From: Synergistaceae bacterium
Lineage (GTDB): Bacteria; Synergistota; Synergistia; Synergistales; Aminobacteriaceae
Direction of reading: 5' to 3'
DNA length: 14,925 nt
Assembly: GCA_012523155.1 (NCBI GenBank)
Contig: JAAYJB010000440.1
Location: 1 to 14,925 of the forward strand
This document shows positions 1 through 14,877 of this stretch, piece by piece. The notes under the pieces were generated by a model, which was not told where the DNA came from, searched no databases, and saw nothing but the letters and a program-made list of their open reading frames with translations. Positions within the stretch are counted from its first letter, which is position 1; each line of letters begins with the position of its first letter. The translations under genes were made by a program, and so were the position numbers.

Positions 1-238
1 ACCTGCTGCGGTCGATCTGGACAACTCCGTTTTTGTCCCGGGAGAGGGCCATGGCGGGACAGACGGCGATGCATCCGCCGCACTGGTTGCAGACATGGAT
101 GTCGGGATAGCCTGCCACGGCCTCCACACGGATCCTGGAGAGACCGGGGTCGTCCTTCTTCGCCCACGTCTTCGAACAGGCGCTCATGCATGAGCCGCAG
201 ACTACGCACCGGTCAAGGTGCGGCTTGAGAAATTTCAT
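1..238 (-). CDS. Ferredoxin with two 4Fe-4S motifs, partial (3' end outside window)
   Basis: Only the first 79 residues are visible; the gene continues past the left edge. Two classic cluster motifs are seen: C11-x2-C14-x2-C17-x3-C21 and C50-x2-C53-x2-C56-x3-C60-P. About 29 residues separate them, more than in the compact bacterial ferredoxins, which resembles the electron-transfer subunits (HycB/CooF-like) that accompany redox enzymes. The ATG at 238 is preceded by a strong ribosome binding site, AAAGGAGT (about 247-254). The preceding gene, the DAO-family dehydrogenase, stops 24 bases upstream on the same strand, so this is very likely the next gene of the same operon. Inferred role: soluble electron acceptor or relay for the flavoenzyme complex encoded upstream. 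The cluster content is read from motifs; the partner is inferred from position. Full length and any extra C-terminal domain cannot be seen. Confidence 0.85.
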   Translation of the reverse strand, partial: MKFLKPHLDRCVVCGSCMSACSKTWAKKDDPGLSRIRVEAVAGYPDIHVCNQCGGCIAVCPAMALSRDKNGVVQIDRSR

Positions 239-262
239 GGGCTACACTCCTTTGCCGATATT

Positions 263-1411
263 CTACACTACATTTGATTCCCGGATGTGTTCACCCCTTG
301 CGAACCTTCGGTAATCAAGCATTGAAAAATCGATGTCAGGCGTCTTTCCTGCCAGGTGCTGTGCCAGGATCTTTCCTGCAACTGGTGCCAGCATGAAACC
401 GTGCCCGGAATAACCTGTGGAATGGTAGAAGTTTTTCACATCGGTTTCTCCGATAATAGGCTGGGCATCAGGCGTCATATCGTACATTCCGGACCACTGT
501 CTTGCGACCCGTATACCCTTTGTCCTGGGAAGAAGCCGAACCAGGGTCCTGGACATTTCTTCCAGGAAATTCCAGGTCGTTTTCATCTCGAAGTCTTCCG
601 GATGTCCTTCCGGACTCATACCGCATATGATGGATCCATGGGGACGCTGCTGTATGTAGTAGTTTCCGGAAAAGCTCATGAGCATGCAGGGACACACGCC
701 TGGAGCAACAGGTTCGGTGATCATTATCTCATGACGTTCGCCCCAGTTCGGGATGTCAATGCCTGCCATCTTTGCGATAAACTGGGCGTACGCTCCCGCA
801 CAGTTTATGACGATGGGGGCGCTGATGGTACCTCGTTCAGTCTCCACGCCCTTGACCACATTGTCTTCAACGACTATTCCGGTACAGGTGGTATGTCTGA
901 AGCAGGTGACGCCCATTTTTTTCGCTGCCTCGAGGTATGCGAAGGTCGTGAGGAAGGGGTCCGCATGGCCGTCCCTCCCGTGAAAGAAGAAGCCGAACGC
1001 GTCGTCAGCCGACAGTCCGGGACAAATTTCCCGGGCTTCCTTCAGAGAAATCATCCGTGAGTTTATACCCAGGGAGTTTTGAAGCACCATGCCTTTACGA
1101 AGCGTTTCAAATTCCTCTTCGTTATAGGCGACCAGGAGATAGCCTCCCTGGTTCAGCCCTACGCTCATCCCGAGCTCATCGTCAAGCTGCTCGAAAATAT
1201 CGAGCGCTGCGATACCGAGCCTGCAGTTCATCTCTGTGCCCCACTGGGCCCTTATGCCTGCGCCGCACCTTCCGGTGGATCCGCCGCATATGGTGCCCTT
1301 TTCAATAAGGACTATGTTTTCCATGCCTTCTTTGGCGAGATAGTATGCAGTGGACACGCCGATGATTCCTCCGCCTATGATTACCACGTCGGCAGTATTT
1401 TTCCACTCCAT
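263..1411 (-). CDS. FAD-dependent dehydrogenase, DAO family (HcnC / sarcosine oxidase beta / proline dehydrogenase beta type)
   Basis: This 382-residue protein belongs to the DAO (D-amino acid oxidase-like) flavoprotein family. It has an N-terminal dinucleotide-binding motif GGGIIG at residues 13-18, an acidic strand end (LIEKG) and the C-terminal FAD-closing segment TGYSGHGFMLAP. These proteins oxidise an amine carbon-nitrogen bond to an imine; known members act on glycine, sarcosine, proline, hydroxyproline or opines. Substrate cannot be read from the sequence. The chosen ATG at 1411 overlaps the stop of the upstream gene by one base (TAATG) and follows GGAGGAGAA. The frame stays open upstream to 1624, but that stretch lies over the BFD gene and looks like no family member. 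Length matches the roughly 380-residue beta subunit of archaeal dye-linked proline dehydrogenase. It probably forms the substrate-oxidising subunit of a complex with the four upstream gene products. Confidence 0.9.
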   Translation of the reverse strand: MEWKNTADVVIIGGGIIGVSTAYYLAKEGMENIVLIEKGTICGGSTGRCGAGIRAQWGTEMNCRLGIAALDIFEQLDDELGMSVGLNQGGYLLVAYNEEEFETLRKGMVLQNSLGINSRMISLKEAREICPGLSADDAFGFFFHGRDGHADPFLTTFAYLEAAKKMGVTCFRHTTCTGIVVEDNVVKGVETERGTISAPIVINCAGAYAQFIAKMAGIDIPNWGERHEIMITEPVAPGVCPCMLMSFSGNYYIQQRPHGSIICGMSPEGHPEDFEMKTTWNFLEEMSRTLVRLLPRTKGIRVARQWSGMYDMTPDAQPIIGETDVKNFYHSTGYSGHGFMLAPVAGKILAQHLAGKTPDIDFSMLDYRRFARGEHIRESNVV

Positions 1412-1701
1412 TATTCTTCTCCTCCCTCTGCAAGAAGGCCGATTTTGATTGGTTTTGCGGGTGGACGTACTGTGGCGGGCTCCACTTCGGATATATGCTT
1501 TCCGGTTTTTTTTGCGATTTCCCTCATGAGTATATCCTGGCATCCCCGTCCCTGGCAGGGGCCCATCCCCACCCGAAGAACTCTCTTCAACTCTTCCACA
1601 GTATCGTATCCCTTGTCTATCCATTCGTCTATTTCTTCAAGGGTGACCTCTTCACACCTGCAGACATAAATTTGGTCTTTCTTCCCGACAGAATCAGGCA
1701 T
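1411..1701 (-). CDS. BFD-like 2Fe-2S small protein
   Basis: This 96-residue protein contains the bacterioferritin-associated-ferredoxin (BFD) type [2Fe-2S] fold. Cys14 and Cys16 lie in VCRCEEVTLEE, and Cys49 and Cys54 in GMGPCQGRGC. The helical segment between them (EIDEWIDKGYDTVEELKRVLRVG) is typical of the family. In many HcnB-like or NirB-like flavoproteins this domain is fused to the C-terminus of the FAD subunit; here it is a separate gene. It starts with ATG at 1701, overlapping the stop of the upstream iron-sulfur gene by eight bases (ATGCCTGA), and its own TAA overlaps the next ATG. Such spacing suggests translational coupling and fixed stoichiometry. Inferred role: electron relay between the DAO-type and NAD(P)/FAD-type subunits. 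It occupies the position of the small delta subunit in archaeal proline dehydrogenase operons, as I recall that gene order. Confidence 0.88.
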   Translation of the reverse strand: MPDSVGKKDQIYVCRCEEVTLEEIDEWIDKGYDTVEELKRVLRVGMGPCQGRGCQDILMREIAKKTGKHISEVEPATVRPPAKPIKIGLLAEGGEE

Positions 1702-2209
1702 GGCACTCCACCACCTTTATGGCACGAAAGTCATTGACGACAGTCTTCGGCGCTGACACATGGACAACGTACGTCCTGTCCTTCCTGGGCTGGGTTATGT
1801 TTTCAACGGTCCCCTCTGCTATTTTCTCCCCCACCCTGTTAAGGCACGCGACCCTGTCGCCTTTCCGGGGCAGCGGCAGCATTTCATACGGCAGCTTGAA
1901 GAGCGCCAGGTCCTCGGAAAAGGTAAGGTCTATGACAAAGCATGCAAGCCCGGGGCAGGACGCCACGCAGAGCGTACATCCCGTACAGAGAGAATGGTCC
2001 ACTGAAGGAGTATCGTTGATGTCCTTAAATGGCCTGATGGCTCCTGTGGGACAGCTTGTAGCACAGGGGTTGCAGGGAATGCGCTGGGGGCACTCGACGA
2101 CGACCACACCGCCCTTTTTTGATTCCCAGAGCTCCCTGGGCGGCAATTGCGCCCCCTCTCTTTCCCCTGTAAGTACCCCGCTGTTGAAAAGCTTCTGCAT
2201 GTCATCCAT
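1694..2209 (-). CDS. Iron-sulfur protein with two 4Fe-4S motifs and C-terminal beta-rich domain (proline dehydrogenase gamma-like)
   Basis: The product has 171 residues from ATG 2209. That codon sits 9 bases after a GGGAGG ribosome binding site and overlaps the upstream stop by eight bases (ATGGATGA). ATGs at 2218 and 2200 are also in frame, and the frame is open to 2419, but the extra N-terminus lies over the conserved end of the upstream flavoprotein. Cysteines fall at 40, 46, 49, 53 (followed by P) and at 75, 78, 81, 85 (followed by P), with another at 90. The second motif is canonical C-x2-C-x2-C-x3-CP; the first has a C-x5-C opening. Residues about 100-171 lack cysteines apart from one near CLNRVG and a C-terminal one, and look like a beta-rich domain. 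Size and order match the roughly 19 kDa ferredoxin-like gamma subunit of Thermococcales L-proline dehydrogenase. Inferred role: electron transfer within the complex. Confidence 0.85.
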   Translation of the reverse strand: MDDMQKLFNSGVLTGEREGAQLPPRELWESKKGGVVVVECPQRIPCNPCATSCPTGAIRPFKDINDTPSVDHSLCTGCTLCVASCPGLACFVIDLTFSEDLALFKLPYEMLPLPRKGDRVACLNRVGEKIAEGTVENITQPRKDRTYVVHVSAPKTVVNDFRAIKVVECHA

Positions 2210-3311
2210 TCCGGCCATCCTCCCATCCGTTGACGAGAACGCACTCGATCCCCTGGCAAATTCTGGCCCCTGCCTCGCCGGACCTGAGTGACTGGAGGCG
2301 GCTCCAGTATTCGTCCAGTTTTCCGTGCTCTGTAAGATATCCAAGGCTCGATGCAGCTGAAAGTCCGGCGATCCGTCCTTCAACCATTGCCGCACTTGCT
2401 TCCTCAATGCCGCTGGCATCGCCGGCGGTAAAAAAGTCGGGGTTCGAAGTCTTCATGGACATATCTCTCCTGGCGACAAGACCGCATAACTGGGGGACGT
2501 ACATCATTTTGCATCCTGCCTGGGACAGGATTTCGGTAGTCGGTGAAAGGCCGACCGCGATACAGATAACATCACAGTCAACGAACGTCTCTTCGCCTAC
2601 TGGTTCGAATTTTTCGTTGAGCCCTGTGATGTACGCACCGGTGATGGTCCGGTCACCTACGGCTCTTTTAATGGAGTGACCGAGAAGGATGGGGACTCCC
2701 ATCCTCCGGACTTTTGCCGCGTGGACCCAGTATCCTCCGATCCTGGGTGCAGCCTCCACAATGGCGGCTACCTCGACTCCTGCCTGCATGAGCTGGTAGC
2801 TCACAATAAGTCCGATGTTTCCGGCACCGACCATGAGCACTCTTTTGCCGGGGATGACGCCGTATACGTTCATGAGCGTCTGCACCGCACCGGCACCGTA
2901 GACGCCCGGGAGGTCATTGTTTACGAAGGGAATGAGCCGTTCCTGGGCTCCAGTTGCGACAATTGTTTTTTGGGCCTGTATGTGGAAAAAGGATTCTTCG
3001 CCCCGCATGGCGGTGAATGTTTTGTCTTCTGAATAAAAGCCTGTTACGGTTGTGTTTTCGTGGATTTCAACATTATCTTTGCACGACTCGATCTCATTGA
3101 GCAGGATCTCCGCGATCTTGAACCCCCTGGTGCCGGCATATTCGTCCTTGCTTCCGAAAAACTTGTGCGTCTGCTTGACGAGCTGTCCCCCGAGGTGAAG
3201 ATCGCTTTCGATCACCATCACCTTCGCACCTGCCGAAGCCGCTTCAGCAGCGGCGCTCAATCCTGCCGCCCCTCCTCCGATCACGAGAATTTCAGTAGAG
3301 AGCGTCTTCAT
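2202..3311 (-). CDS. NAD(P)/FAD-dependent oxidoreductase (HcnB / proline dehydrogenase alpha-like)
   Basis: This 369-residue flavoprotein has two nucleotide-binding motifs in the pyridine-nucleotide disulfide oxidoreductase arrangement: GGGAAG at residues 12-17 (FAD) and GAGNIG at 162-167 (NAD(P)H). Between them is the ATGAQE segment (119-124), and near residue 295 the second FAD contact TAGDASG. Known relatives are the FAD subunits of hydrogen cyanide synthase (HcnB), opine oxidase and the NADH-oxidising alpha subunit of archaeal proline dehydrogenase. Those are often about 450-490 residues, with extra 2Fe-2S segments; here these are encoded separately (2Fe-2S gene 9 bases upstream, BFD gene downstream). 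ATG 3311 has only a weak ribosome binding site (GGAAGGA, 13 bases away), so coupling to the upstream gene is likely. Role: electron exchange between the complex and NAD(P) or another acceptor; direction is not known from sequence. Confidence 0.88.
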   Translation of the reverse strand: MKTLSTEILVIGGGAAGLSAAAEAASAGAKVMVIESDLHLGGQLVKQTHKFFGSKDEYAGTRGFKIAEILLNEIESCKDNVEIHENTTVTGFYSEDKTFTAMRGEESFFHIQAQKTIVATGAQERLIPFVNNDLPGVYGAGAVQTLMNVYGVIPGKRVLMVGAGNIGLIVSYQLMQAGVEVAAIVEAAPRIGGYWVHAAKVRRMGVPILLGHSIKRAVGDRTITGAYITGLNEKFEPVGEETFVDCDVICIAVGLSPTTEILSQAGCKMMYVPQLCGLVARRDMSMKTSNPDFFTAGDASGIEEASAAMVEGRIAGLSAASSLGYLTEHGKLDEYWSRLQSLRSGEAGARICQGIECVLVNGWEDGRNG

Positions 3312-3320
3312 GGGCTGTCA

Positions 3321-3680
3321 TCAGTCCTTCCCGTCCGGAACGCTGCCGTTGCCGTGCTGCGTTTCGACCTGCATACCCGGCTTCAGGGGCGTGATGCACG
3401 TCCGAACGTTCGGTACGCCGTCCACGACCATGAAGCAGCTGCTGCATTTTCCTATGGCGCAGAAAAAACCTCTGGGACGGTGTTCTTTTTCAGTTTCCCG
3501 ATACACCCGTACCCCGTTTGCATGAAGAGCCATTGCTATAGGCTCTCCCTCATAGCCCTCCATTTCCTTGCCGTCAAAGAAAAAGAGAACCTTTTCTCCG
3601 CGCTGGAAATCAAGGATGGGATGTTCCCCGATGAGCTCCACAGTTCCGCTGCCGCCTCCGGGACCTTGTTTTTCGACCAA
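3321..3680 (-). CDS. Small 2Fe-2S protein, HcnA/Fer2_4 family
   Basis: A 2Fe-2S protein with Cys74, Cys79, Cys82 and Cys95 (C-x4-C-x2-C-x12-C, numbered from the proposed start). The signature FFCAIGKCSSC and the following GVPNVRTC are typical of the small N-terminal subunit or domain of HcnABC, opine oxidase and D-hydroxyproline dehydrogenase sets. The frame is open to an ATG at 3704, but that ATG has no nearby ribosome binding site. In contrast, AAGGAGG lies inside that extension, 9 bases before an in-frame TTG at 3680, so I prefer the TTG start (119 residues); the ATG form would be 127. It is the first gene of the operon and ends 9 bases before the flavoprotein gene. Inferred role: plant-type ferredoxin-like relay attached to the alpha-like flavoprotein. 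Some relatives carry this domain fused to that flavoprotein. Confidence 0.87.
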   Translation of the reverse strand: MVEKQGPGGGSGTVELIGEHPILDFQRGEKVLFFFDGKEMEGYEGEPIAMALHANGVRVYRETEKEHRPRGFFCAIGKCSSCFMVVDGVPNVRTCITPLKPGMQVETQHGNGSVPDGKD

Positions 3681-3845
3681 GCCCGTATTCCTCCTTCCGG
3701 CCATGACAGGATTATCTGATTACCTCATAAAAGCGCTATGGAACGGGAAAAACAAAAAAAGGCGAGTGAAAGGAAAGCTTGTGAATAGAATCCAAATACC
3801 CCCTCCGTATGGTTGAGAGCAGATGGCATGACTTCTTTGTGTTCG

Positions 3846-3874
3846 ATTTTGTATCCTAAAATAATGTTTGTCAA
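3846..3874 (-). promoter_or_regulatory. Candidate sigma70-type promoter for the redox operon
   Basis: Reading the minus strand, a perfect -35 hexamer TTGACA (3874-3869) is followed after 17 bases by CAAAAT (3851-3846; four of six matches to TATAAT). Transcription would start near 3839, leaving a leader of about 160 bases before the proposed TTG start of the 2Fe-2S gene. The assignment rests on consensus match, spacing and position only. Confidence 0.5.
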
Positions 3875-3898
3875 GCATAAATTTAAATTAAGAGTATT

Positions 3899-3927
3899 TT
3901 GTATTTATAGGGATTTGTATATAAAAT
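3899..3927 (+). promoter_or_regulatory. Candidate sigma70-type promoter for the OCD-family gene
   Basis: TTGTAT (3899-3904) and TAAAAT (3922-3927) are separated by 17 bases, each close to the sigma70 consensus. A start near 3934 would give a leader of about 110 bases before the proposed ATG at 4046. The surrounding AT richness raises the chance of accidental matches. Confidence 0.45.
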
Positions 3928-4045
3928 ATATTACATAAGATCCACTGGTTTTTCAGGTAAAAAATCGACTATGACAGGGGAGCACAAAAAAGATAGAATT
4001 TTGATTGGAGCAGAGAGTACGAAAACAAAAAGGAGGGCTGTGAGA

Positions 4046-5020
4046 ATGTTTCTCATGAACAGCACCGGGATGCTTGCATCATTTTCCTGTCGGGAACTTA
4101 TGGATACTGCCGCGGAGGCCATCAAAGCTGCAAACTCACCGGAGAGCGGGGAAATAACAGCGCCGCTCCGGACAACCGTGAAGAGAGAAAATGATTCGCT
4201 TCTTCTCATGCCCTGTCTCACCAGCGAAACATGGGCGCTGAAGGTCCTCACCCTGTTTCCTGGAAATCCGGGAAAGGGGAGACCTTTTCTGAACGGGCTT
4301 GTCCTTCTGTTCGAAGGAGAAGATGGAACTCCTTCAGCCGTCATGGACGGCCGTATTCTGACAGCCCTGCGGACAGGTTCGGTGGGAGGGCTTGGTGTTC
4401 GTACCCTTTCAAGGCCGGATGTGGCGTCACTCGGAATAATCGGGGCCGGAGCCCAAGGATACTGGCAGGTCCGTTTTGCATGTGCTGCAAGGCCATTTTC
4501 AAGGGTGTTCATTTTTGATGTAAAGCGGGAAAATGCGGAAAACCTTTCCAATAAACTGCGGGTCGATCTTCCAGATGTGGAAATACGTGTCTGCGGGGGT
4601 GCCGCTGAACTTGTTGCGATGTCGGAAGTCATAATAACAGCGACTACATCCAGAAGCCCTGTGTTTCCGGAAAAGCCTGATCTGTTTCGGGATCGCTGTT
4701 TTGTGGGAATAGGGTCGTACACCCCGGATATGAGGGAATATCCGGATTGTTTTTTTGACGAGGTAAAAACAGTTTTCGTTGATACGCTCCATGCTCTGTC
4801 GGAAACAGGGGACCTTATTGATCCAATCAATGCGGGGACGCTGAAAAGGGAGACCGTTCGTCCTCTTTCGTCTCTTTTCTCATCAGGAACCGGATTTATC
4901 CCCGGGGAAGGCTCGGTGTTGTTTAAATCGGTGGGGGTATCTGTTTTTGATCTTTATGCTGCGAAAAACATCCTTTCCGCGGGAAGACGCCTGGGAGAAG
5001 GGATCGAATTCACCCTTTAA
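4046..5020 (+). CDS. Ornithine cyclodeaminase/mu-crystallin family protein; probable imine (ketimine) reductase
   Basis: This 324-residue protein has the family's signature run: K66 in WALKVL, FPGNP at 71-75, MDGRILTALRTG at 100-111, and the Rossmann motif GIIGAGAQG at 130-138 for NAD(P)H. VFVD (243-246) and GDL follow near the end of that domain. The family includes ornithine cyclodeaminase, delta1-pyrroline-2-carboxylate reductase, ketimine reductase and alanine dehydrogenase. Where true ornithine cyclodeaminase has the catalytic Asp of GGDCPGK, this protein reads GSYTPDMRE, with Tyr225. That argues against ornithine cyclodeamination and for imine reduction; this step is inference. The ATG at 4046 follows AAGGAGG by 9 bases; an in-frame ATG at 3971 has no clear ribosome binding site and would add 25 lysine/arginine-rich residues. 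It is divergent from the redox operon, suggesting shared regulation and a shared imino-acid intermediate. Confidence 0.85.
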   Translation: MFLMNSTGMLASFSCRELMDTAAEAIKAANSPESGEITAPLRTTVKRENDSLLLMPCLTSETWALKVLTLFPGNPGKGRPFLNGLVLLFEGEDGTPSAVMDGRILTALRTGSVGGLGVRTLSRPDVASLGIIGAGAQGYWQVRFACAARPFSRVFIFDVKRENAENLSNKLRVDLPDVEIRVCGGAAELVAMSEVIITATTSRSPVFPEKPDLFRDRCFVGIGSYTPDMREYPDCFFDEVKTVFVDTLHALSETGDLIDPINAGTLKRETVRPLSSLFSSGTGFIPGEGSVLFKSVGVSVFDLYAAKNILSAGRRLGEGIEFTL

Positions 5021-5043
5021 CGCAGTATCACGGGGATGACTTG

Positions 5044-5083
5044 AAAAAAAGCGCACCCGGTTTTCCTGGAAAACCGGGTGCGC
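5044..5083 (-). terminator. Factor-independent terminator after rlmB
   Basis: A perfect 15-bp stem (5051-5065 with 5069-5083) closes a 3-base loop. On the minus strand it is followed by seven T (opposite 5050-5044). It lies 13 bases past the rlmB stop and so ends the uvrB-uvrA-rlmB unit. The plus-strand side has no T run, but the stem also lies about 30 bases past the OCD-family stop and may slow converging transcription. Confidence 0.9.
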
Positions 5084-5096
5084 CTATTCCTTATGA

Positions 5097-5924
5097 TCAG
5101 GCCTGGGGTCCCCAGGTCCTCGCCCACTCGAACAAACCGACGGCACATGCGACGCTGGCGTTCAATGAGCCCGTCTTCCCGGACAGCGGAATTCTGACGG
5201 TCTCGTCGCATGTTTCCGCGACAAGGCGCGAAAGTCCCTCACCTTCAGCGCCGACTATTACGGCTGTTCTTGCCGGCAGGGGCTCGGACCAGAGAGAACG
5301 TCCTGCCCTGTTGTCGAGTCCTATGGTCCAAAGGCCTGCCTCCTGCAGTCGCTTGACTGCCTCGGAGACGTTATTGACTCCGACCATGGGGATGCGAAGC
5401 GCGGCACCTGCGCTTACCTTGACTACGGTGCCGCCGGGAAGCGCTCCCCTTCTCTTCGGGAAAAGCACTCCTCTTGCGCCGCATGCTTCGGCTGTCCGTG
5501 CGACTGCTCCAAGATTGTGGGGGTCCTGTACATGGTCGAGGATCACTGCCAGGACCGGTCCTTCTTCAGGCAGAACAGAAAGGAAATTTTCGAGTTCGAG
5601 AATAGACACTTCGCCGCTTTTGCACGCGACGCCCTGATGTCCGCTGTGGCCGCAAATTTCCGTGAGGACCTCCGGCGCCATCTCCTGGATGATGACTTTT
5701 CCCTTCTCGGCCAGGAGTTTTATCTGGCGGGAGAATGATTCGCTTACGTTTTTTCCGAGATATACCTTCTGCACCCTGTCGGGAGATTCCTTCAGGAGCT
5801 GAAGAACCACGTGCCGGCCCCAGTTGAGATCTTCGTTTATTTTCCGTTCCCCCCGGTGAAACGTTTCTTTTCCAGATGAGCCTGGCCGTTCCCTTCTGCC
5901 GCGTTTCTCATATGCTTTATCCAA
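5097..5924 (-). CDS. rlmB: 23S rRNA (guanosine-2'-O-)-methyltransferase RlmB, TrmH/SpoU family
   Basis: A 275-residue SPOUT-class methyltransferase. The N-terminal substrate-binding domain starts around GRHVVLQLL (residues 36-44) and contains HQGVA (96-100). The knotted catalytic domain shows motif 1 (LDHVQDPHNLGAVAR, 129-143, with the conserved Asn137 and Arg143), motif 2 (GAEGEGL, 225-231) and motif 3 (IPLSGKTGSLNASVA, 245-259). In the family RlmB adds a 2'-O-methyl group to a guanosine of the 23S rRNA peptidyl-transferase loop (G2251 in E. coli) using S-adenosylmethionine. The start is TTG at 5924, after AAAGGATGG, overlapping the uvrA stop by eight bases (TTGGATAA). About 30 charged residues precede the core domain, somewhat longer than in E. 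coli. Paralogues acting on other RNAs cannot be fully excluded. It is the last gene before a strong terminator. Confidence 0.88.
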   Translation of the reverse strand: MDKAYEKRGRRERPGSSGKETFHRGERKINEDLNWGRHVVLQLLKESPDRVQKVYLGKNVSESFSRQIKLLAEKGKVIIQEMAPEVLTEICGHSGHQGVACKSGEVSILELENFLSVLPEEGPVLAVILDHVQDPHNLGAVARTAEACGARGVLFPKRRGALPGGTVVKVSAGAALRIPMVGVNNVSEAVKRLQEAGLWTIGLDNRAGRSLWSEPLPARTAVIVGAEGEGLSRLVAETCDETVRIPLSGKTGSLNASVACAVGLFEWARTWGPQA

Positions 5925-8766
5925 TTTTTTCCATCCTTTCAGCTATCTGTGCAGCGTATTCCCGGAGATACTGTGCCGTATAGCCCTGTGTTCCCTTCAT
6001 CAGGTCCCCGGGGGAACCACAGGCTACAACCTCTCCTCCGCCGTGTCCTCCTTCCGGGCCGAGATCGATGATGTAGTCGGATGATAAAAGGACATCCAGA
6101 TTATGTTCTATCAGGATCACGGTGTTTCCCCGGTCAACAATTTTGTTGACTATGGTCATTAGCTTTTCAACATCCGTATAGAACAGCCCTGTTGTCGGTT
6201 CATCCAGAAGGTACAGCGTCGGGCCTGAGAATTTTTTGCTCAACTCCTTTGAGAGCTTCACCCTTTGTGCCTCTCCCCCGCTGAGGGTAAGAGCCGATTG
6301 TCCCAGTGTTATATATCCCAGCCCGGCATCGGAAAGGAGGGCTATTTTTGAAGCGATCCGCGGTATATCCCTGAAAAAGGCGGAAGCCTCGTCTACGGTC
6401 ATATCGAGAACGTCCGAAATTGTTTTCCCCTTGAACTTCACTTCCAGTGTTTCCCTGTTGTATCTTTTGCCTCCGCACACTTCGCAGGGGACATAGATAT
6501 CAGGCAGGAAAAGCATCGAGACCTTTGTCGAGCCTCCGCCTCCGCAGGCCTCACACCTGCCGCCCCTTACATTAAAACTGAAACGGCCCGGAAGATAGCC
6601 CCGGATGCGTGATTCGGGAAGTTCCGCGAAAAGCTCCCGAATCAGGGTGAACAGCCCCGTGTACGTCGCAGGGTTCGATCGCGGCGTTCTCCCTATAGGG
6701 GCCTGGTCAACGAGGACAACGTTCCTGAACTGTTCGGATCCTTCAATCGCCTTGTGTGCTCCTGCACGCTCCCGAAAATCTTTATCAAGAAGCCTTCTCA
6801 GTCCCTTGTAGAGCACGTCGTACACGAGACTGCTTTTTCCCGATCCGGAGACGCCCGATACGGTGACCAGAAGACCGGTCGGGAATGAGACATCGATATT
6901 CTTCAGGTTGTTGTGACAGGCACTCCTGACAGTGAGAAGGCCTCTTGATGTACGTTTAATCCCTGCGCGTACGATTCCCGTGCATTCCCCGCGCAGATAC
7001 GGACCCGTGAGAAAGTTCGAACGAAGGGCATCCGCATACTCACCTGCAAAAACGACTTCTCCTCCCTGGTCCCCTGCCGCCGGCCCCATTTCGATAATAG
7101 CGTCCGCGGCTGTCATAGTCTCCCTGTCATGTTCAACAACGACGACAGTGTTTCCAAGGTCCCTGATCGATTCCAGTGTTCCCACAAGCTTGTCCGTATC
7201 CCTGGAGTGAAGTCCTATCGTCGGTTCATCCAGTACGTACAGCACCCCGCTCAGTTTTGAACCTATCTGGGCGGCCAGCCGGATCCTCTGGCTTTCCCCG
7301 CCGCTGAGGGTGTCCGACCTTCTGATAAGTGACAGGTAGCCGACCCCCACATCGCTCAGGAAGCGAAGTCTCTTTTTCGTCTCCATGAGGACCTGGTGGA
7401 CGATGTTTTCTTCTCCTTCCGAGAGTGAGAGTTTTTCAACGACTGAAGACAGTTCGTCTATGGGCATGGAGACAAAATCTCCGATCCCGTACCCGTGTAC
7501 CTTCACGTTCAGAGCTTCCGGCCGCAGGCGCATGCCTTTGCACGAGGCACACTCGTCGTCCACACGATAGGTTTCGAGTTCCTCCATAAGCGCTTCCGAT
7601 GCGGTTTCCCTCCATCGTGCCTCAAGCCATGGAAGAAGACCCTCGTACCTGCCCATGTAGGTCTTTTTTTCCTCGCTGCGGTCCCGAAAGAACGGCATCG
7701 GAATCCTCTCGTCGGAACCGTGAAGGATAAAACTTCGGATTTCTTCGGGCAGTTTGCGGAACGGCGGGGTAAGGTCCCATTCATTTTTCAGTGCAAACTT
7801 TTCTAGCTTTGCCAGCATGTAGTGCTTTTTCTTCCAGGGAAGAATGGCGCCTTCGGGAACAGACCTTTCCGGGTCCACTGAGAGTTCCTCTGAGAAAAAC
7901 TGGTGGCTGCCCAGGCCCGAACAGTCCGGGCACGCACCGTATGGAGTGTTGAACGAGAAAAGCCTCGGTTCTATCTCGGGCAGTGAGATATCGCATGAAG
8001 GGCACGTAAAGTTCTCGGTCAGAAGTTTCTCCTCCCCCTCTTCGGGTACTGCCAGGACGTATCCCCCGCTCAGGGTGAGTGCGTTCTCCACGGCTTCAGC
8101 GATTCTTCCCCGCCTGTCTTCCTGGACGCGGAGTCTGTCCACCACGACCTCGATCGTGTGGCGCCTGTTTTTGTCAAGGGTGATCTCCTCTTCAAGCCAC
8201 AGAACGGTACCGTCCACACGAACGCGGAGAAAGCCTTTTTCCCGTGTCTGGGTGAAGAGGTTGCGGAATTCCCCTTTCTTCCCACGGACCAGCGGTGAGA
8301 GGATCTCGATCCTCTGGTCGGAAAAGTTTCTGAAAAGGATGTCAACGATCTCGTCAAGTGAATACCTCACTACCGGTTTTCCGCATGAAGGGCAATGAGG
8401 AACGCCGATCCTTCCGAAGAAAAGCCGTAAATAGTCGTATACCTCGGTCACCGTTCCCACGATCGACCGGGGATTGTGGGAGACACCCTTCTGTTCGATG
8501 GAAATAGCCGGGGAAAGGCCGGAAATATCGTCCACGTCCGGTTTGTTTTGTACGCCGAGAAACTGCCTTGCATAGGCGGAAAGCGATTCCACATAGCGGC
8601 GCTGGCCTTCGGCATAAAGCGTGTCGAACGCCAGGGAAGACTTTCCGGAACCGGAAGGTCCCGTGATCACGACGAGCTTGTTTCGCGGAACGTCAACGTC
8701 GATGTTTTTTAAATTGTGTTCTCTTGCTCCTTTTATTTGAATCCACTGCGACACGGTTAAATTCAT
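5917..8766 (-). CDS. uvrA: Excinuclease ABC subunit A (UvrA)
   Basis: UvrA is the damage-sensing ABC-type ATPase of nucleotide excision repair, working as a dimer that loads UvrB. From ATG 8766 the protein has 949 residues, normal for the family. Seen in order: [10 protein letters not shown] (13-22), Walker [10 protein letters not shown] (36-44), a CPSC...CPDC zinc site, signature LSGGESQR, Walker B with DEPTIGLH, a second Walker [11 protein letters not shown], a second zinc module CEAC...CEVC, signature LSGGEAQR and DEPTTGLF. The last residue is unusual: most UvrAs read GLH there. A GTG at 8754 gives an N-terminus closer to the E. coli length; the site GAAGGG lies 3 bases before the ATG and 15 before the GTG, so the start is unresolved. 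The TTG at 8814 is unlikely. The gene overlaps the end of uvrB by 62 or 74 bases and the start of rlmB by 8. Confidence 0.95.
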
Positions 8767-10723
8767 TCCCTTCAATCGAAGCCAGCATGTCACGAATCCT
8801 GGCGGCTTTCTCAAAATCGAGTTTTTCCACGGCCTCCCACATTAATTTCTCCAGGTCGGCGGCAGAGAGTTTTTCTTCCCTGGACTTTCCGCTTTCCGCT
8901 GTTCCGGTTCCGGCGGGGAGGATTTCCTCGGGAAGCAGTGAAACTACGTCCTTCTTTATGGTTTCAGGCGTTATTCCGTGGAGCTTATTGTACTCCATCT
9001 GGATGGAACGCCGCCTGGTTGTTTCCGCCGAAGCTTTGCGTATGCTCTCGGTGATTTCGTCTGCGTAGAGGATGACTTTCCCTGCCGTGTTCCTGGCAGC
9101 CCGCCCGATCATCTGGATGAGCGATCTCTCTGAACGAAGGAATCCCTCCCTGTCGGCATCCAGTATGGCGACAAGTGATACCTCGGGAAGATCCATCCCC
9201 TCCCGCAGCAGGTTGATTCCCACGAGAACTGAAATTTCTCCGTTCCTCAGGTCGCGGATAAGTTCCGCCCTTTCGAATGTATTCAGCTCGGAATGAATGT
9301 ATTTTACTCTGAACTGGAGATCTGCAAGATATTCCGCCAAGTCTTCGGATGATTTCTTCGTGAGCGTTGTAACAATAGCCCTTTCCCCTCGTCCCGTAAT
9401 TTCCCTGAGCCGGCCGATGAGGTCGTCAACCTGTCCTGTTGCGGGCTGTATCTCGACTTCCGGGTCGAGAACGCCCGTGGGCCGGATAACCTGCTCCGTA
9501 ACCTGCTGGGAAACGTTGAGCTCGTAATCCCCCGGTGTCGCCGTAACAAAGATGGCCTGTCTCATGTATTTTTCGAATTCGTTCCATTCGAGCGGCCTGT
9601 TATCAAGGCACGACGGCAGCCGGAAGCCGTTTTCGACCAGGGTGAGTTTTCTCGCCCTGTCTCCGTTGAACATTCCCCTCACCTGTGGAAGAGTGATGTG
9701 CGACTCATCAACAACAAGGATAAAGTCCTCGGGGAAAAAGTCGAGAAGTGTTCCGGGCGGTTCCCCGGAATTTCTACCGTCCAGGTATCGTGAATAGTTC
9801 TCTATTCCGGAGCAGTAGCCTGTTTCCTGGAGCATTTCCAGATCATAGAGCGTCCTCATCCTGATCCTCTGCGCCTCGAGAAACTTCCCTTGATTTTCGA
9901 ACATTGCTGACTGCTCCTCCATTTCCCGGCGGATCGGCTCTAAGGAACGCTCTATGGCATCCCGGTCGGTGACGTAATGTTGTGCCGGAAAGATGGATGC
10001 TTCCCTGAGATTTTCAAGGGATTTCCCCGTTACCGGATCGAATTCATCGATCCTCTCAATTTCGTCGTCGAAAAACAGGATTCGCAGTGCCCTGTCCCCG
10101 TATGCAGGAAAAATCTCGATAATATCGCCACGGGCACGGAATTTTCCCTGTTCGGTCACGAGATCGTTTCTCTCGTAATAATTATCGAGAAGTTTCTCCA
10201 TAAATGCCCGGCGATCCCATTGTTCCCCCACAGAAAACGGAAAGATGACTTTCTCGTATGTTTCTTTTTTCCCAAGGCCGTAAATACAGGAGACGCTGGC
10301 GACGACAACAACGTCACGCCGTTCTATCAGCGCCTTGGTGGCTGCAAGGCGAAGGCGTTCTATCCTGTCGTTTACAGAGGCATCCTTTTCGATGTATGTG
10401 TCTGTGGACGGAACATAGGCCTCGGGCTGATAGTAGTCATAATAGCTCACAAAGTAGTGAACGGCGTTCCGGGGAAAAAAACTGCGAAATTCACTGTAAA
10501 GCTGGGCTGCGAGGGTTTTATTGTGAGAGAGGACAAGAGCTGGCCTACCTGCTTCGGTGATGACATTAGCCACGGTAAATGTTTTCCCGCTTCCCGTTGC
10601 CCCGAGAAGTGTCTGGAAACGGAGACCCGAGGAGATGCCGGCCGAGAGCTGACGGATCGCTTCGGGCTGGTCACCTGAAGGAGCCCAGTCTGATACGATC
10701 TGAAACTTTCTGTCCCGTGTCAT
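8693..10723 (-). CDS. uvrB: Excinuclease ABC subunit B (UvrB)
   Basis: UvrB is the helicase-like subunit that verifies damage and, with UvrC, positions the dual incisions. The 676-residue protein shows Walker [10 protein letters not shown] (41-49), the damage-probing beta-hairpin region ([17 protein letters not shown], 94-110), DESH, and motif [15 protein letters not shown] domain for UvrC contact sits near residues 619-652 ([20 protein letters not shown]). The ATG at 10723 follows GAGGAGG by 10 bases. After the UVR domain comes a lysine/arginine-rich tail of about 24 residues that is read from DNA also encoding the UvrA N-terminus in another frame. uvrC is not in the window. Only about 30 bases lie between the upstream terminator stem and the ribosome binding site, so the promoter is not obvious. 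Confidence 0.96.
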
Positions 10724-10743
10724 GCTGCATTTTCCTCCTCTGC

Positions 10744-10760
10744 TTCTTTCAGGGAAAGAA
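10744..10760. repeat. 7-bp inverted repeat upstream of uvrB
   Basis: TTCTTTC (10744-10750) and GAAAGAA (10754-10760) are perfect inverted arms with a 3-base spacer. They lie between the ftsH terminator stem and the uvrB ribosome binding site, 21 bases before the uvrB start. It could be a regulator site or a small hairpin in the uvrB leader. The low-complexity purine/pyrimidine make-up makes a chance match possible. Confidence 0.4.
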
Positions 10761-10797
10761 AAAGAGAGGAGGCCTGACTGACCGGCTCCGCCTCCTC
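10755..10797 (-). terminator. Factor-independent terminator after ftsH
   Basis: On the minus strand GAGGAGGC (10797-10790) pairs with GCCTCCTC (10773-10766) around a 16-base loop, followed by a T-rich run (TCTTTTTCTTT, opposite 10765-10755). It begins 27 bases past the ftsH stop. Five T also follow the stem on the plus strand, so it could work in both directions. Confidence 0.75.
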
Positions 10798-10824
10798 TTT
10801 TTCTCCTGTCGTTTACGTTTTTCT

Positions 10825-12753
10825 CTATACGGCCGGTGCCTCTCCGACGAGGCCTGTTCCGTATGATTGCTCCTCGGGGGTGTCCTCGGAAGACTTCTGT
10901 CCTTCCTTTAGGGAGGTTTTTTCACTACCCTCCGGCTCTTCTCCTGAAAGCTGTTCCTCCATTCCGAGGAGTACCGTCAGTTCCTTCCCTTCTATTACTT
11001 CCTTTTCGAGAAGGACCCGGGCGACCTTTTCCACATCTTCCGAGTTCTCCTCAAGCAGGCTTCGGACTCTGCCATAGCATGAGTCAATGATCATTTTTAC
11101 TTCCTGGTCAATGGTATACGCAACTTCGTCGCTGTAGTTTCTTTCCTCGCCTATGTCTCTGCCCAGAAACACTTCGTGATGCTTATGTCCGAGCTTTACG
11201 AGTCCCAGTTTTTCGCTCATACCGAACTCTGTAACCATCTGCCTGGCGATTTGTGTCGCCCTCTCGAGATCATTGCTCGATCCGGTCGTGACGTCCCCGA
11301 ACTGAAGTTCCTCCGCAACGCGCCCGCCGAGAAGGACGCAAACCTTGTCCAGAAGGTCGGATTTCGACATGAGAAACCTGTCCTCTTCCGGCAGCTGCAG
11401 CGTATACCCTAGAGCCATGTGTCCCCTGGGAATTATTGAAATTTTGTGCACCGGGTCACAGGAAGGGATCAGTTTGGCCACAAGTGCATGTCCGGTTTCG
11501 TGGTAGGCGATGATCTTCTTCTCCTTGTCGCTTACAAGTCGGCTTTTCCTTTCGGGCCCTGCGATGACTCTATCAATGCCTTCTTCGAAATCCTTCATCC
11601 TGATCTCTTTCTGCCCGCTTCGAGCTGAAAGCAGGGCGGCTTCGTTCACAAGGTTCGCAAGATCCGCCCCAACGAAGCCGGGCGTCCTTCTTGCCAGCAC
11701 TGCAAGGTCCACGTCACCGGCAAGTTTTTTCCCTTTGGAATGAACCTCTAGAATTGCCTCCCGGCCTTTTACATCCGGGCGGTCGACGACGATATGTCTG
11801 TCAAACCGTCCGGGCCGCAGCAGGGCGGGATCAAGGATGTCAGGGCGGTTCGTCGCCGCAATGAGGATGATCCCCGTTGACTCGTCAAACCCGTCAAGTT
11901 CTACCAGCAGCTGGTTTAGTGTCTGCTCCCGCTCGTCGTGCCCTCCGCCGAGTCCAGCTCCGCGCTGACGCCCGACTGCATCCATTTCATCAATGAAAAT
12001 AATGCAGGGCTGGTATTTTCTCGCCTGTTCGAAGAGGTCCCTTACCCTTGCCGCACCAACGCCGACAAACATTTCAACGAAATCTGATCCGCTGACGCTG
12101 AAAAACGGCACATCGGCTTCGCCTGCAGCTGCACGGGCAAGAAGGGTCTTTCCCGTTCCCGGAGGACCAAGAAGCAGGATACCCCGCGGGACCTTCGCTC
12201 CCAGTGTGGTAAACCGGCCCGGGTCCTTGAGAAAGTACACGACCTCCGACAGTTCTTCTTTCGATTCATCACATCCGGCCACGTCCTTGAACGTCACCTT
12301 CGGGCGGTTATCAAGGAAAAGCTTCGCTTTGCTCTTCGCGAAGTTCATGACCTTACCCCCGCCTCCCTGCATGTTATAGAGGAAGAAAATCCAGACTCCT
12401 ATGAGCAGCAGGGTCGGGAACAGCGAGGAAAGCATATTGGCCCACCAGGGAGTCTTCTGGGGAGGCTCAACCTCCACGTTGACTCCCTTCTGTGCGATTT
12501 CCTTCGCGAGATCTCCGACGCCGACCACGTAAGTCACAAACTCTCTTCCGTCCGTGAACTTCCCCTTGAGGGAGTTCTCAAGTACCGAGACAGATCGTAT
12601 CCTGCCCGCGGATACCTCGGAAAGGAAAGAGCTGTAACTGATCTCAAGGGTCTGCTGAGGTCCCTGTGTTGGTGACAGAAAAACATTCACAAGGCTCACA
12701 ACGAGCACGATGAGAATGAGATACAAACCTAGATTTTTTACCAATCGGCCCAA
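10825..12753 (-). CDS. ftsH: ATP-dependent zinc metalloprotease FtsH
   Basis: FtsH is a membrane-anchored hexameric AAA+ protease that degrades unassembled membrane proteins and short-lived regulators. The 642-residue sequence shows a first membrane segment (about 8-27), a periplasmic domain, a second membrane segment (about 109-128), then Walker A GPPGTGKT (196-203), Walker [11 protein letters not shown] (251-260) and the second region of homology [19 protein letters not shown] (301-319). The zinc-binding HETGH (418-422) follows. Further on, DLERATQIA supplies the usual third acidic zinc-ligand region. The C-terminal tail is rich in Glu, Ser and Gly and looks disordered, as in many FtsH proteins. 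The start is TTG at 12753, 10 bases after AGGAGG; a second TTG at 12744 is possible. It follows hpt after 57 bases and ends at a terminator. The tilS-hpt-ftsH order is widespread in bacteria. Confidence 0.96.
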
Positions 12754-12810
12754 ATTATCGCCGCCTCCTGACTAGATTGAGTTTTTTTCCTGGTCTCTAT
12801 CGCTCCAAGT

Positions 12811-13356
12811 CTATTGCTCCAGGACCTCCACAATATGCACGGAGGGAAGGTTTCTCCATCTGCCGGCATAATCGAGGCCATAGCCCACAACAAACTTATC
12901 GGGTATTGAAAAACCTTTATATTCAACATGGACGGAAACCTTGCGCCTCTCTTCCTTGTCCAGCAACGCGCATACCCTTATGGTTCCCGGCTGGCGCTCG
13001 TGCATCAGCTTGACAAGATAAGACAGGGTAAGGCCCGTGTCAACTATATCTTCTACGATAAGGACATTTTTGTCCTTGACGCTGCTGTCAAGATCTTTGA
13101 CGATACGGACGATCCCGCTTGTTTTCGTGGAGTCTCCGTATGAGGATACCGCCATGAAATCGAGAGAGACGTTCACAGTCTCCGGGATCGCCCTCACAAG
13201 GTCTGACATGAAAACGACTGCTCCTTTGAGAATGCCGACGACTACGAGGTCTTTCCCCGCATAATCTTTTCCTATCTTCTCACCGATCTCGCGAACTCTT
13301 TTTGCTATTTCATTCTCAGGAATCAGAACTTCGGCAACTTTGTATTCCATGATCAT
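12811..13356 (-). CDS. hpt: Hypoxanthine phosphoribosyltransferase
   Basis: This 181-residue enzyme converts hypoxanthine (and usually guanine) plus PRPP into IMP or GMP in purine salvage; it is cytosolic. The PRPP-binding loop VLIVEDIVDTGLT (98-110) has the two adjacent acidic residues typical of the family. LKGAVVFMSDL (43-53) and SSYGDSTKTSG (71-81) match the active-site and flexible-loop regions, and VGYGLDYAGRWRNLP near the end is the family's base-binding C-terminal signature. The ATG at 13356 and a second in-frame ATG at 13350 are both possible; GGAGAGAAG lies upstream. The gene overlaps the end of tilS by 41 bases (35 with the later ATG), pointing to coupled translation. Confidence 0.95.
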   Translation of the reverse strand: MIMEYKVAEVLIPENEIAKRVREIGEKIGKDYAGKDLVVVGILKGAVVFMSDLVRAIPETVNVSLDFMAVSSYGDSTKTSGIVRIVKDLDSSVKDKNVLIVEDIVDTGLTLSYLVKLMHERQPGTIRVCALLDKEERRKVSVHVEYKGFSIPDKFVVGYGLDYAGRWRNLPSVHIVEVLEQ

Positions 13357-14731
13357 TCATCTTCTCTCCGCCTAAGTTTGGGAAAGCCGCTCTCAGATGG
13401 ACAGCGGCAGTGTTCTTCTTTTGGATGCCGGTTCTTCCCTGTTTTCCCCAGAAAGGAACCCATTCATGATCGCCGATGAAAAGTGCGGGAAATACATCAT
13501 TTCCCCATGAAGGGGCAATGAATTTTTCCCGGAGATTCGAGTCGCTCAAGGCAAAAACCCTGACGGAACCGCATTCAGGTAAAATAGCGTGCACGGGACC
13601 TACCGAATGAAAAGCCGTTTCCCTTTTCTCCCAGAAAAAAATCCATTTGTTCCACGCAAACTTTCCCCGCTCACCTTCCAGGGGAAAACATGCACCGGAA
13701 TGATCCAATCTGTTTAGTATATCAGGGTCTACCCATGAGACAAAGGGGGAGGAACAAAAAACAAACATCTCTCTCTGCCATTGAAAGCACCAGGAACCCG
13801 AGCTGCGGGCCAGCCGGACCAGGGATTGGGTCCTCTCGCGGGACAATGTCCTAAGCCCGATTTTTCTCCCTACACCCCTGAAAAAAACTGACATTTCCGC
13901 GTCTCCCAGTTTCCTGATCACATCAAGCCCGCATGAATATGATGAGAAGGGAACCTTCCTTTCAGCTGCGGAAAAAAGCGAATCCTGGAGCATTTCCTCT
14001 TTTTGCCTGTAATATGTCATGTCAGCTGCTGTGCCGAGGATATGTTCTTTAACACCGGGATTGAAGCGGCTTTCGAGAAAAGGAAGAAGACTCTTTCGTA
14101 TCCTGTTCCTGAGATATGCCGTATCCGTATTCGTCGAGTCCTCGCGCCAGGGGATGTTATATGTGTTCAGCATTCTTCTCAAAAAGTCTCTCGAGAAAGA
14201 CAGGAGGGGACGGAAAATGAATCCCCTTTTTTCCTGTATCCCGGTTAATCCCCGAACACCGCTCCCTCTGATCAGATTGTGGAGGAAGGTTTCCGCTGCA
14301 TCATCAGAGGTATGGGCAACGGCTATTCCCCACCCGCCGGCCGATGCCCTCGTGTTTTCGAGGAATTTGTACCGTATCCTCCTGGCACCATCCTCCAGAG
14401 ATTCCCCTTTCCTGAGGAGACCCGGAACATCCCGTGATTCACTAACGAGAGGAAGGCCGAAGCTGGCCGCCATTTCTGAAACGAATATCGCATCCTTCCG
14501 TGACTCGCTGCCACGAATACCATGCTCGAGGTGCGCTATTATCAGTTTTCCTTTCCAAAGTTCGGCAAACATCCAGAGCATTGCTACTGAATCGCTTCCC
14601 CCTGACACGGCAAGCACGATAGGAGAATCGATATCCCACCATCCCTGGGATTTACCTATCGTCTCGAATTCTTTTTTCAGCCGTGGAATGGAATATTCGA
14701 AAGGTATATCATTCCGGGGCCCTCTTTTCAT
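13316..14731 (-). CDS. tilS: tRNA(Ile)-lysidine synthetase TilS
   Basis: TilS attaches lysine to C34 of tRNA-Ile2 (anticodon CAU), changing its identity from Met to Ile and its reading from AUG to AUA. The 471-residue protein has the PP-loop ATP-pyrophosphatase motif SGGSDS (43-48), the lid-like region AHLEHGIRGSESRKDA, further conserved segments EDGARRIRY, HTSDDAAETFLHNLIRGSG and REDSTNTDTAYLRNRIR, and a C-terminal TilS_C-type domain ending in GDHEWVPFWG. The ATG at 14731 has a modest site (CAGGA) close by and GGGAGG farther up. The frame runs open to 14851, but that part crosses a terminator and a tRNA gene and cannot be coding. It lies directly downstream of two tRNA-Met genes and leads into hpt and ftsH. 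Confidence 0.95.
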   Translation of the reverse strand: MKRGPRNDIPFEYSIPRLKKEFETIGKSQGWWDIDSPIVLAVSGGSDSVAMLWMFAELWKGKLIIAHLEHGIRGSESRKDAIFVSEMAASFGLPLVSESRDVPGLLRKGESLEDGARRIRYKFLENTRASAGGWGIAVAHTSDDAAETFLHNLIRGSGVRGLTGIQEKRGFIFRPLLSFSRDFLRRMLNTYNIPWREDSTNTDTAYLRNRIRKSLLPFLESRFNPGVKEHILGTAADMTYYRQKEEMLQDSLFSAAERKVPFSSYSCGLDVIRKLGDAEMSVFFRGVGRKIGLRTLSRERTQSLVRLARSSGSWCFQWQREMFVFCSSPFVSWVDPDILNRLDHSGACFPLEGERGKFAWNKWIFFWEKRETAFHSVGPVHAILPECGSVRVFALSDSNLREKFIAPSWGNDVFPALFIGDHEWVPFWGKQGRTGIQKKNTAAVHLRAAFPNLGGEKMNDHGIQSCRSSDS

Positions 14732-14757
14732 GATCCTGCCGGGCACCTCCCTGACAT

Positions 14758-14783
14758 AAAAAAAAGCGGAGTCACCGCTCCGC
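14758..14783 (-). terminator. Factor-independent terminator between tRNA-Met and tilS
   Basis: On the minus strand GCGGAG (14783-14778) pairs with CTCCGC (14771-14766) around the loop CGGTGA, followed by eight T (opposite 14765-14758). It ends transcription of the tRNA genes 17 bases after the tRNA 3' end. tilS begins only 26 bases after the T run, leaving no room for a normal promoter beyond the terminator. Confidence 0.88.
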
Positions 14784-14800
14784 CTGTAATCATCATCAAT

Positions 14801-14877
14801 TGGTGGCGGTGACTGGAATCGAACCAGTGACACTGCGGGTATGAACCGCATGCTCTAGCCATCTGAGCTACACCGCC
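14801..14877 (-). tRNA. tRNA-Met (CAU), elongator
   Basis: A complete 77-base cloverleaf including encoded CCA (14803-14801). The acceptor arms GGCGGTG and CACCGCC pair fully, the D arm is GCTC/GAGC, the anticodon arm TGCGG/CCGCA holds loop TTCATAC with anticodon CAU (14843-14841), and the T arm ACTGG/CCAGT holds TTCGATT. G1 pairs with C72, so it is not the initiator. The loop differs from CTCATAA of tRNA-Ile2, and the body resembles Bacillus elongator tRNA-Met, which supports elongator Met over the TilS substrate tRNA-Ile2. It lies 4 bases after the initiator tRNA. Confidence 0.95.

Follow-up and report, generated by a model that had tools for sequence, protein, structure and literature searches.

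A proline dehydrogenase-like complex and its probable place in a proline/hydroxyproline catabolic operon of Synergistaceae

The stretch of DNA analysed here, called the window throughout, is an entire contig of 14,925 nucleotides (JAAYJB010000440.1, our C296) from a Synergistaceae bacterium whose genome (GCA_012523155.1; 2.26 Mb) is spread over 492 contigs. At one end of it lie six consecutive minus-strand genes for iron–sulfur and flavin proteins, g1 to g6, which a preliminary description, made from the letters alone, had read as a six-gene operon resembling the archaeal proline dehydrogenase complex. We have tried to focus on two questions: what is this set of genes, and to what larger system might it belong? 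We argue that five of the genes form a conserved unit and that this unit—together with the radical enzyme HypD and a tungsten-type aldehyde ferredoxin oxidoreductase (AOR)—makes up a catabolic operon for proline and hydroxyproline, two amino acids abundant in collagen, whose routes meet at Delta1-pyrroline-5-carboxylate (P5C), a reading to which we give a probability of roughly two in three.

Results

The five-gene unit

The six genes, in the order in which they would be transcribed, are these:

3321..3704, minus strand: g1, Fer2_4 [2Fe-2S] subunit, 127 aa (PF13510, 108.9 bits; CX4CX2CX12C, Cys 82, 87, 90, and 103)
2202..3311, minus strand: g2, NAD(P)/FAD (Pyr_redox_2) subunit, 369 aa (PF07992; related to 2gag_A and 1y56_A)
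1694..2209, minus strand (start at 2209 or 2218): g3, two-cluster 4Fe-4S subunit with a C-terminal beta-rich domain (Fer4_7)
1411..1701, minus strand: g4, BFD-like [2Fe-2S] subunit, 96 aa (PF04324, PF17806; Cys 14, 16, 49, and 54)
263..1411, minus strand: g5, DAO-type FAD subunit, 382 aa, proposed catalytic subunit of an L-proline dehydrogenase (PF01266, 270 bits)
1..238, minus strand: g6, truncated 5' part of a polyferredoxin, proposed AorA-like electron-transfer subunit (8 Cys present here)

All six frames (1–3704) are real, and the domains and junctions named in the preliminary description are borne out by the frames, by Pfam, and by the start and stop codons: from g1 to g6 the matches are Fer2_4, Pyr_redox_2, Fer4_7/Fer4_6, Fer2_BFD with SO_alpha_A3, DAO, and Fer4_10/Fer4_7, and the junctions are +9, −8, −8, −1, and +24 bases with g3 starting at 2209 (the second becomes −17 if g3 starts at 2218). 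Two points need amending: g6 is incomplete at the contig end, and in relatives the operon runs on past it. We do not find the up to seven iron–sulfur clusters once assigned to a single complex; g1–g5 show four cluster motifs in total. The eight cluster cysteines of g3 are invariant in an alignment of 12 sequences, and its C-terminal half (window 1694–1900) is a conserved beta-rich domain (model 74 pLDDT) for which no PDB fold match was found at E ≤ 0.001. In g5, an Arg-X-Trp forms a putative FMN motif.

We counted as a DAO orthologue any protein of at least 57% identity (fragments in G004, G011, and G165 included) and as any DAO match one at E ≤ 1e-60. Among the 180 genomes of the order that were searched, 81, the window's included, have an orthologue—that of the same-genus genome G002 lies at 4316–5461 of its contig C5—and 90 have a match of any kind. 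Comparing gene neighbourhoods, as the preliminary description had proposed, we found the order Fer2-Pyr-Fd-BFD-DAO (Fd, ferredoxin) whole in 18 of the 22 loci of one set and in all 16 of a second, both sets having at least 2.6 kb before DAO and some contigs in common. The g1–g5 genes are a conserved unit, beyond chance.

Judged by sequence comparison, g5 is nearest to the beta subunit of the archaeal L-proline dehydrogenase (PDH). Its best solved match is 1y56_B at 268 bits, the next being sarcosine oxidase beta at 156; identity is 36% to the former vs 28% to the latter; and 1y56_B also heads the Foldseek results (TM 0.92/0.94). The proposed likeness to an archaeal-type complex thus holds, although the whole is a variant of that complex rather than a full match because the Fer2 part is a separate gene, g1, not fused to alpha. 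Sarcosine or glycine oxidase was considered as the family and rejected: g1, g2, and g4 each correspond to a different part of the 996-position soxA model TIGR01372 and score far below its cut-off of 1164 bits, and the DAO protein is nearer to 1y56_B in bits and identity. Plasmid-borne relatives, among the best 60 of 1252 records, are at most ~35% identical, and the labels of their beta subunits are mostly generic. Classical proline dehydrogenase (PF01619) was found in none of the 59 genomes searched for it, the window's included, in a search whose controls were positive in 8 of 14.

The sixth gene and the aldehyde oxidoreductase

What, then, is g6? It had been described as a two-cluster ferredoxin and counted with the other five as one complex. 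Its two-cluster look is a truncation effect, since intact homologues (127–166 aa) carry 16–18 cysteines in all 11 checked; the one at L061 has 16, in four CX2CX2CX3C motifs. Ferredoxins of this type stand directly before an AOR in eight genomes, the AOR there being of AFOR_N plus AFOR_C build (L061), and a like ferredoxin precedes AOR in three stretches without any DAO complex (L147, L151, L154). In the available part of PMC6365974, the AOR of Aromatoleum has a small subunit, AorA, with four clusters. Because these four-cluster homologues adjoin AOR, also where the DAO complex is missing, and AorA is likewise four-cluster, g6 is more likely an AOR small subunit than a subunit of the flavin complex. 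Among solved AORs, the L061-type enzyme finds only distant relatives (best match 137 bits). All that the window's own genome shows of such an enzyme is the truncated g6 and a 41-aa C-terminal piece of an AOR.

That is, the contig stops inside g6, whose 3' part is cut off. Window bases 1–253 are found again, at 99%, at the end of another contig of the same genome (C69, locus L138), where 3222–4704 hold a second g6 start (100% over 79 aa) behind an EamA-like transporter, so named from sequence only; C69 spans 4.7 kb without a DAO complex. This copy suggests a duplicated ferredoxin–AOR pair in the window's genus. AOR also recurs within that genus: in G003 two additional contigs give matches to it, and in G002 two contigs each hold a 126-aa tail of the enzyme. 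Given the 253-base repeat and these multi-contig copies and fragments, an assembly break at the repeat is probable, and the repeated pair is the likely cause of the contig's end.

What follows in relatives and in the window's genome

Twelve genomes of family f1 have a DAO orthologue, and in eight of these DAO, ferredoxin, and AOR follow one another directly. For the rest, three (G000, which is the window's genome, with G001 and G002) end at a contig edge after DAO, and G016 passes to an activase without ferredoxin or AOR. Seven of the eight go on to HypD in the same orientation (the G004 copy of HypD is incomplete at its contig edge); the remaining contig, that of G034, breaks off within AOR. 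One contig, L200, carries the arrangement in a single piece: beside an ornithine cyclodeaminase/mu-crystallin (OCD) family gene, g2–g5, ferredoxin, AOR, activase, HypD, DctP, a DctQ-like gene, and DctM, with g1 on the same contig in L007.

On C285, a separate contig of the window's genome, are found the 41-aa end of an AOR (95% identical to L061), an activase, HypD, and the three TRAP transporter genes DctP-Q-M; very probably the operon is continuous from C296 to C285. The HypD of C285 scores 1188.6 bits against the curated NF043068 cut-off of 1100, and 12 of 12 compared active-site residues are conserved (numbering of the C. difficile structure; accessible part of PMC7077986). An HplG-type hydroxyproline lyase was tried for the radical enzyme and rejected, the L061 copy scoring 418 bits vs 982 for HypD. 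From trans-4-hydroxy-L-proline, the product of HypD is P5C, again according to what PMC7077986 gives in its available text.

Outside f1, subunits of a 2-oxoacid:ferredoxin oxidoreductase follow the DAO orthologue on 16 contigs (24 of 71 locus rows). The one alpha subunit that was tested passes the cut-off of a model for 2-oxoacid:acceptor oxidoreductases but not that of 2-oxoglutarate synthase, and a glutamate dehydrogenase-type gene, below curated cut-offs, comes next on 4 of the 16. Elsewhere, in another family, L069 and L070 have the five-gene unit with a more distant HypD (50–51%, over cut-off) and its activase, and L069 also has a proline-racemase-family and a sodium-symporter-like gene. 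At several loci where AOR is distant from DAO, it lies near an smpB-like gene, named from its sequence start only.

Co-occurrence across the order

A complex that produces P5C would be expected to occur together with enzymes that consume it. P5C dehydrogenase was counted with TIGR01236 at E ≤ 1e-60 (44 genomes, 41 of them over cut-off); with TIGR01237, no genome gave a match over cut-off, and the seven matches scanned were all TIGR01236 over cut-off. The 180 genomes divide evenly into 90 that have a DAO match and 90 that lack one. P5C dehydrogenase occurs in 43 of the former vs 1 of the latter, and AOR in 69 vs 2 (71 of 180 overall), counts that are not corrected for phylogeny and in which the window's genome is scored AOR-negative despite its 41-aa AOR tail. 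Both genomes that break the pattern by lacking a DAO match (G063, G131) come from genera in which DAO is found in other members. By genus, AOR is present in 35 of 37 DAO genera vs 0 of 21 others, and P5C dehydrogenase in 24 of 37 vs 0 of 21; one or the other is present in 36 of the 37, the exception, g48, having a single listed DAO genome that is 55% complete. In the window's genus, P5C dehydrogenase is found in G001 and G002 and is missing from G000, G003, and G004.

The divergent neighbour and other features

Beyond g1 lie an intergenic region and a gene on the other strand:

3705..3970, no strand assigned: divergent intergenic region between operon and OCD gene, with a candidate promoter-like site on the minus strand (3874–3846)
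3971..5020, plus strand: OCD-family gene (PF02423), possible Delta1-pyrroline-2-carboxylate (P2C, ketimine) reductase

A consensus-only promoter scan of 3600–4050 gave three sites vs 1.0 expected. NCBIfam P2C reductase models match the OCD gene below cut-off. Four contigs (L003, L004/L062, L007/L200, L061) have a homologue of 50–59% in the corresponding position, and a 40% OCD fragment lies at the edge of L005; the gene is kept beside the operon in some same-family relatives.

Separate complexes with a DAO ~50% identical occur at L203, L204, L206, L201, and L074, with OCD-like (L203, L204, L206, L074) or symporter-like neighbours, and they probably act on another substrate. At L205 (G164:C4), a DAO complex of 39% identity lies near its own ferredoxin and AOR (46–54% by piece), beside several further genes. 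The rest of the window (5097–14851, minus strand) holds housekeeping genes like RlmB, UvrA, UvrB, FtsH, Hpt, and TilS, named from sequence. A tRNA-Met (cat) gene at 14801–14877 overlaps the 5' end of the TilS-like frame (13316–14851), so that gene probably starts further in.

Discussion

A candidate route from hydroxyproline and proline to glutamate

How might such an operon work? Sequence families, gene order, co-occurrence, and HypD active-site residues are what we have directly; the activities that follow are predicted from them. The TRAP transporter would take up substrate. HypD would convert trans-4-hydroxy-L-proline to P5C, and in the g1–g5 complex the DAO subunit would take two electrons from L-proline, giving P5C as well. 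The preliminary description had left the substrate unnamed; HypD in the operon of relatives and the co-occurrence of P5C dehydrogenase point to L-proline oxidised to P5C. From the DAO subunit, we infer, electrons would pass through FAD/FMN and the four iron–sulfur clusters to the NAD/FAD subunit. P5C would open by hydrolysis to glutamate semialdehyde, and in some members a canonical P5C dehydrogenase would carry the oxidation on to glutamate. In members where that enzyme was not found, the window's included, perhaps the unrelated AOR would oxidise glutamate semialdehyde and pass the electrons via g6 to ferredoxin. Glutamate could then go on to glutamate dehydrogenase and the 2-oxoacid oxidoreductase, which lie beside the complex in other families. 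A literature search returned nothing on point for AOR acting on glutamate semialdehyde, or for AOR with proline or hydroxyproline in Synergistota, with subscription papers mostly outside its reach.

Where would the electrons of proline end? The P5C/proline potential is about −123 mV. Because this is too high to reduce NAD+ alone, these electrons would need a higher-potential acceptor, a reverse (P5C-reducing) role for the complex, or coupling to reduced ferredoxin, and the earlier suggestion that amine electrons go to NAD(P) or ferredoxin is energetically doubtful for proline alone. By analogy with other enzymes, one might imagine an electron-confurcating complex in which proline and reduced ferredoxin jointly reduce NAD+, with AOR serving as a glutamate-semialdehyde:ferredoxin oxidoreductase in place of P5C dehydrogenase; we consider this combination decidedly unlikely. 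Were it true, hydroxyproline and proline could be fermented to glutamate via one operon, without respiration.

Weighing the alternatives

Several observations weigh against the operon that we propose. VIA-align Z scores tie 1y56_B (51.6) with sarcosine oxidase beta (51.3–51.8), and g2 scores 83.9 bits to sarcosine oxidase alpha (2gag_A) vs 58.0 to PDH alpha (1y56_A). Four of the 22 loci (L014, L015, L024, L027) lack two to four of g1–g4 directly before DAO. HypD was not found in G040, G049, G012, G035, or G044, although AOR and a DAO match are present (59 genomes were searched for HypD), and in the other families compared the main AOR is separated from the DAO operon, either by a long distance or by lying on a different contig. 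Of the 90 genomes with a DAO match, 29 have AOR as well as P5C dehydrogenase; strict exclusion between the two was tried and rejected, their avoidance not being significant (p = 0.08 over 90 genomes, 0.11 over the 81 with orthologues). Finally, 7 of the 90 have neither enzyme: G000 (AOR tail present), G128, G142, G157, G161, G143, and G172, of which G143 (96%) and G172 (93%) are more complete.

Some of these points feed the most serious rival, to which we would give somewhat less than an even chance: that AOR scavenges aldehydes generally during peptide fermentation, with its presence only reflecting lifestyle, and that P5C goes back to proline or on to ornithine. The broad substrate ranges that the available text of PMC6365974 gives for AORs would suit a scavenger, as would the distance between AOR and the complex in other families and the joint occurrence with P5C dehydrogenase; yet in f1 the AOR sits inside the proline/hydroxyproline operon, an AOR (58%) stands beside two DAO complexes in L073 (family f8), AOR paralogues (46–48%) stand beside paralogous complexes in L074 and L205, and 36 of the 37 DAO genera have AOR or P5C dehydrogenase. 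Could the complex instead oxidise another secondary amine or a D-amino acid (D-proline or D-hydroxyproline, sarcosine, an opine), forming Delta1-pyrroline-2-carboxylate or the like, which the OCD gene would reduce to L-proline? The sub-cut-off matches of that neighbour to ketimine reductase models fit, as do the OCD-like genes (26–30%) near paralogous complexes in L074, L203, L204, and L206, the OCD-like and proline-racemase-family neighbours of the L075 DAO paralogue, and the names of database homologues, mostly "sarcosine oxidase subunit beta" or "FAD-binding oxidoreductase." We find it rather unlikely: PDH beta, not sarcosine oxidase beta, is the nearer relative of the DAO protein, P5C dehydrogenase, of use only where P5C is made, tracks the complex, and the HypD of the relatives' operon yields P5C. 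Very unlikely, to our minds, is that g6 belongs to the flavin complex as a genuine sixth subunit. It does lie only 24 bases after DAO on the same strand, but AOR comes directly after it in eight genomes, like ferredoxins precede AOR without the complex, the second copy on C69 has no DAO complex near it, and most of the 71 locus rows, some of them short, lack such a ferredoxin beside DAO.

If the proposed proline/hydroxyproline operon is real, it would provide bacteria with an equivalent of the archaeal proline dehydrogenase complex, in genomes that yielded no classical enzyme, a route from the HypD product onward to glutamate instead of back to proline, and, in glutamate semialdehyde, a concrete candidate substrate for an AOR type carried by 71 of the 180 genomes of the order.

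Comparison with known systems

Heterotetrameric sarcosine oxidase, whose alpha subunit carries a folate domain, holds in that single alpha of ~1000 aa the parts that are separate genes here. Bacterial D-hydroxyproline dehydrogenase, opine dehydrogenase, and HCN synthase (alpha4beta4gamma4) share with the window's genes a DAO beta, a separate [2Fe-2S] gamma, and the Arg-X-Trp FMN motif; as far as the accessible sections of PMC4575208 go, both of their [2Fe-2S] motifs are in gamma and alpha and there is no 4Fe-4S subunit, whereas here the BFD (g4) and two-cluster 4Fe-4S (g3) proteins have genes of their own. In C. difficile, hypD adjoins proC (PMC12899673, available portion); in the relatives described here, hypD is found instead with a proline dehydrogenase-like complex and AOR. 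The tungsten enzyme AorAB of Aromatoleum and the L061 pair have in common an AFOR_N/AFOR_C large subunit and an adjoining 16-Cys small ferredoxin. The AorABC type adds a gene for an FAD subunit, AorC, which is not beside AOR in L061 or L200, where activase comes next.

The archaeal comparison is with the dye-linked L-proline dehydrogenases of Thermococcales (T. profundus, T. litoralis, and the P. horikoshii PDH of 1y56), which share the DAO-type beta, the NAD/FAD subunit, and two small subunits, gamma and delta, the one ferredoxin-like and the other BFD-like. The Thermococcus gene order, given in the available part of PMC4364671 as pdhA-F-X-B, is alpha-gamma-delta-beta, and g2-g3-g4-g5 match it as had been claimed, g3 and g4 corresponding to PdhF and PdhX by their place in the row. 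In the archaeal alpha the Fer2 part is the N-terminus, as stated in the accessible portion of PMC4575208; here it is the separate gene g1. The T. litoralis genes are clustered with a P2C reductase and a proline-racemase gene (PMC4364671, same part); in the window's relatives, by contrast, the operon joins the complex to genes for HypD, AOR, and a TRAP transporter.

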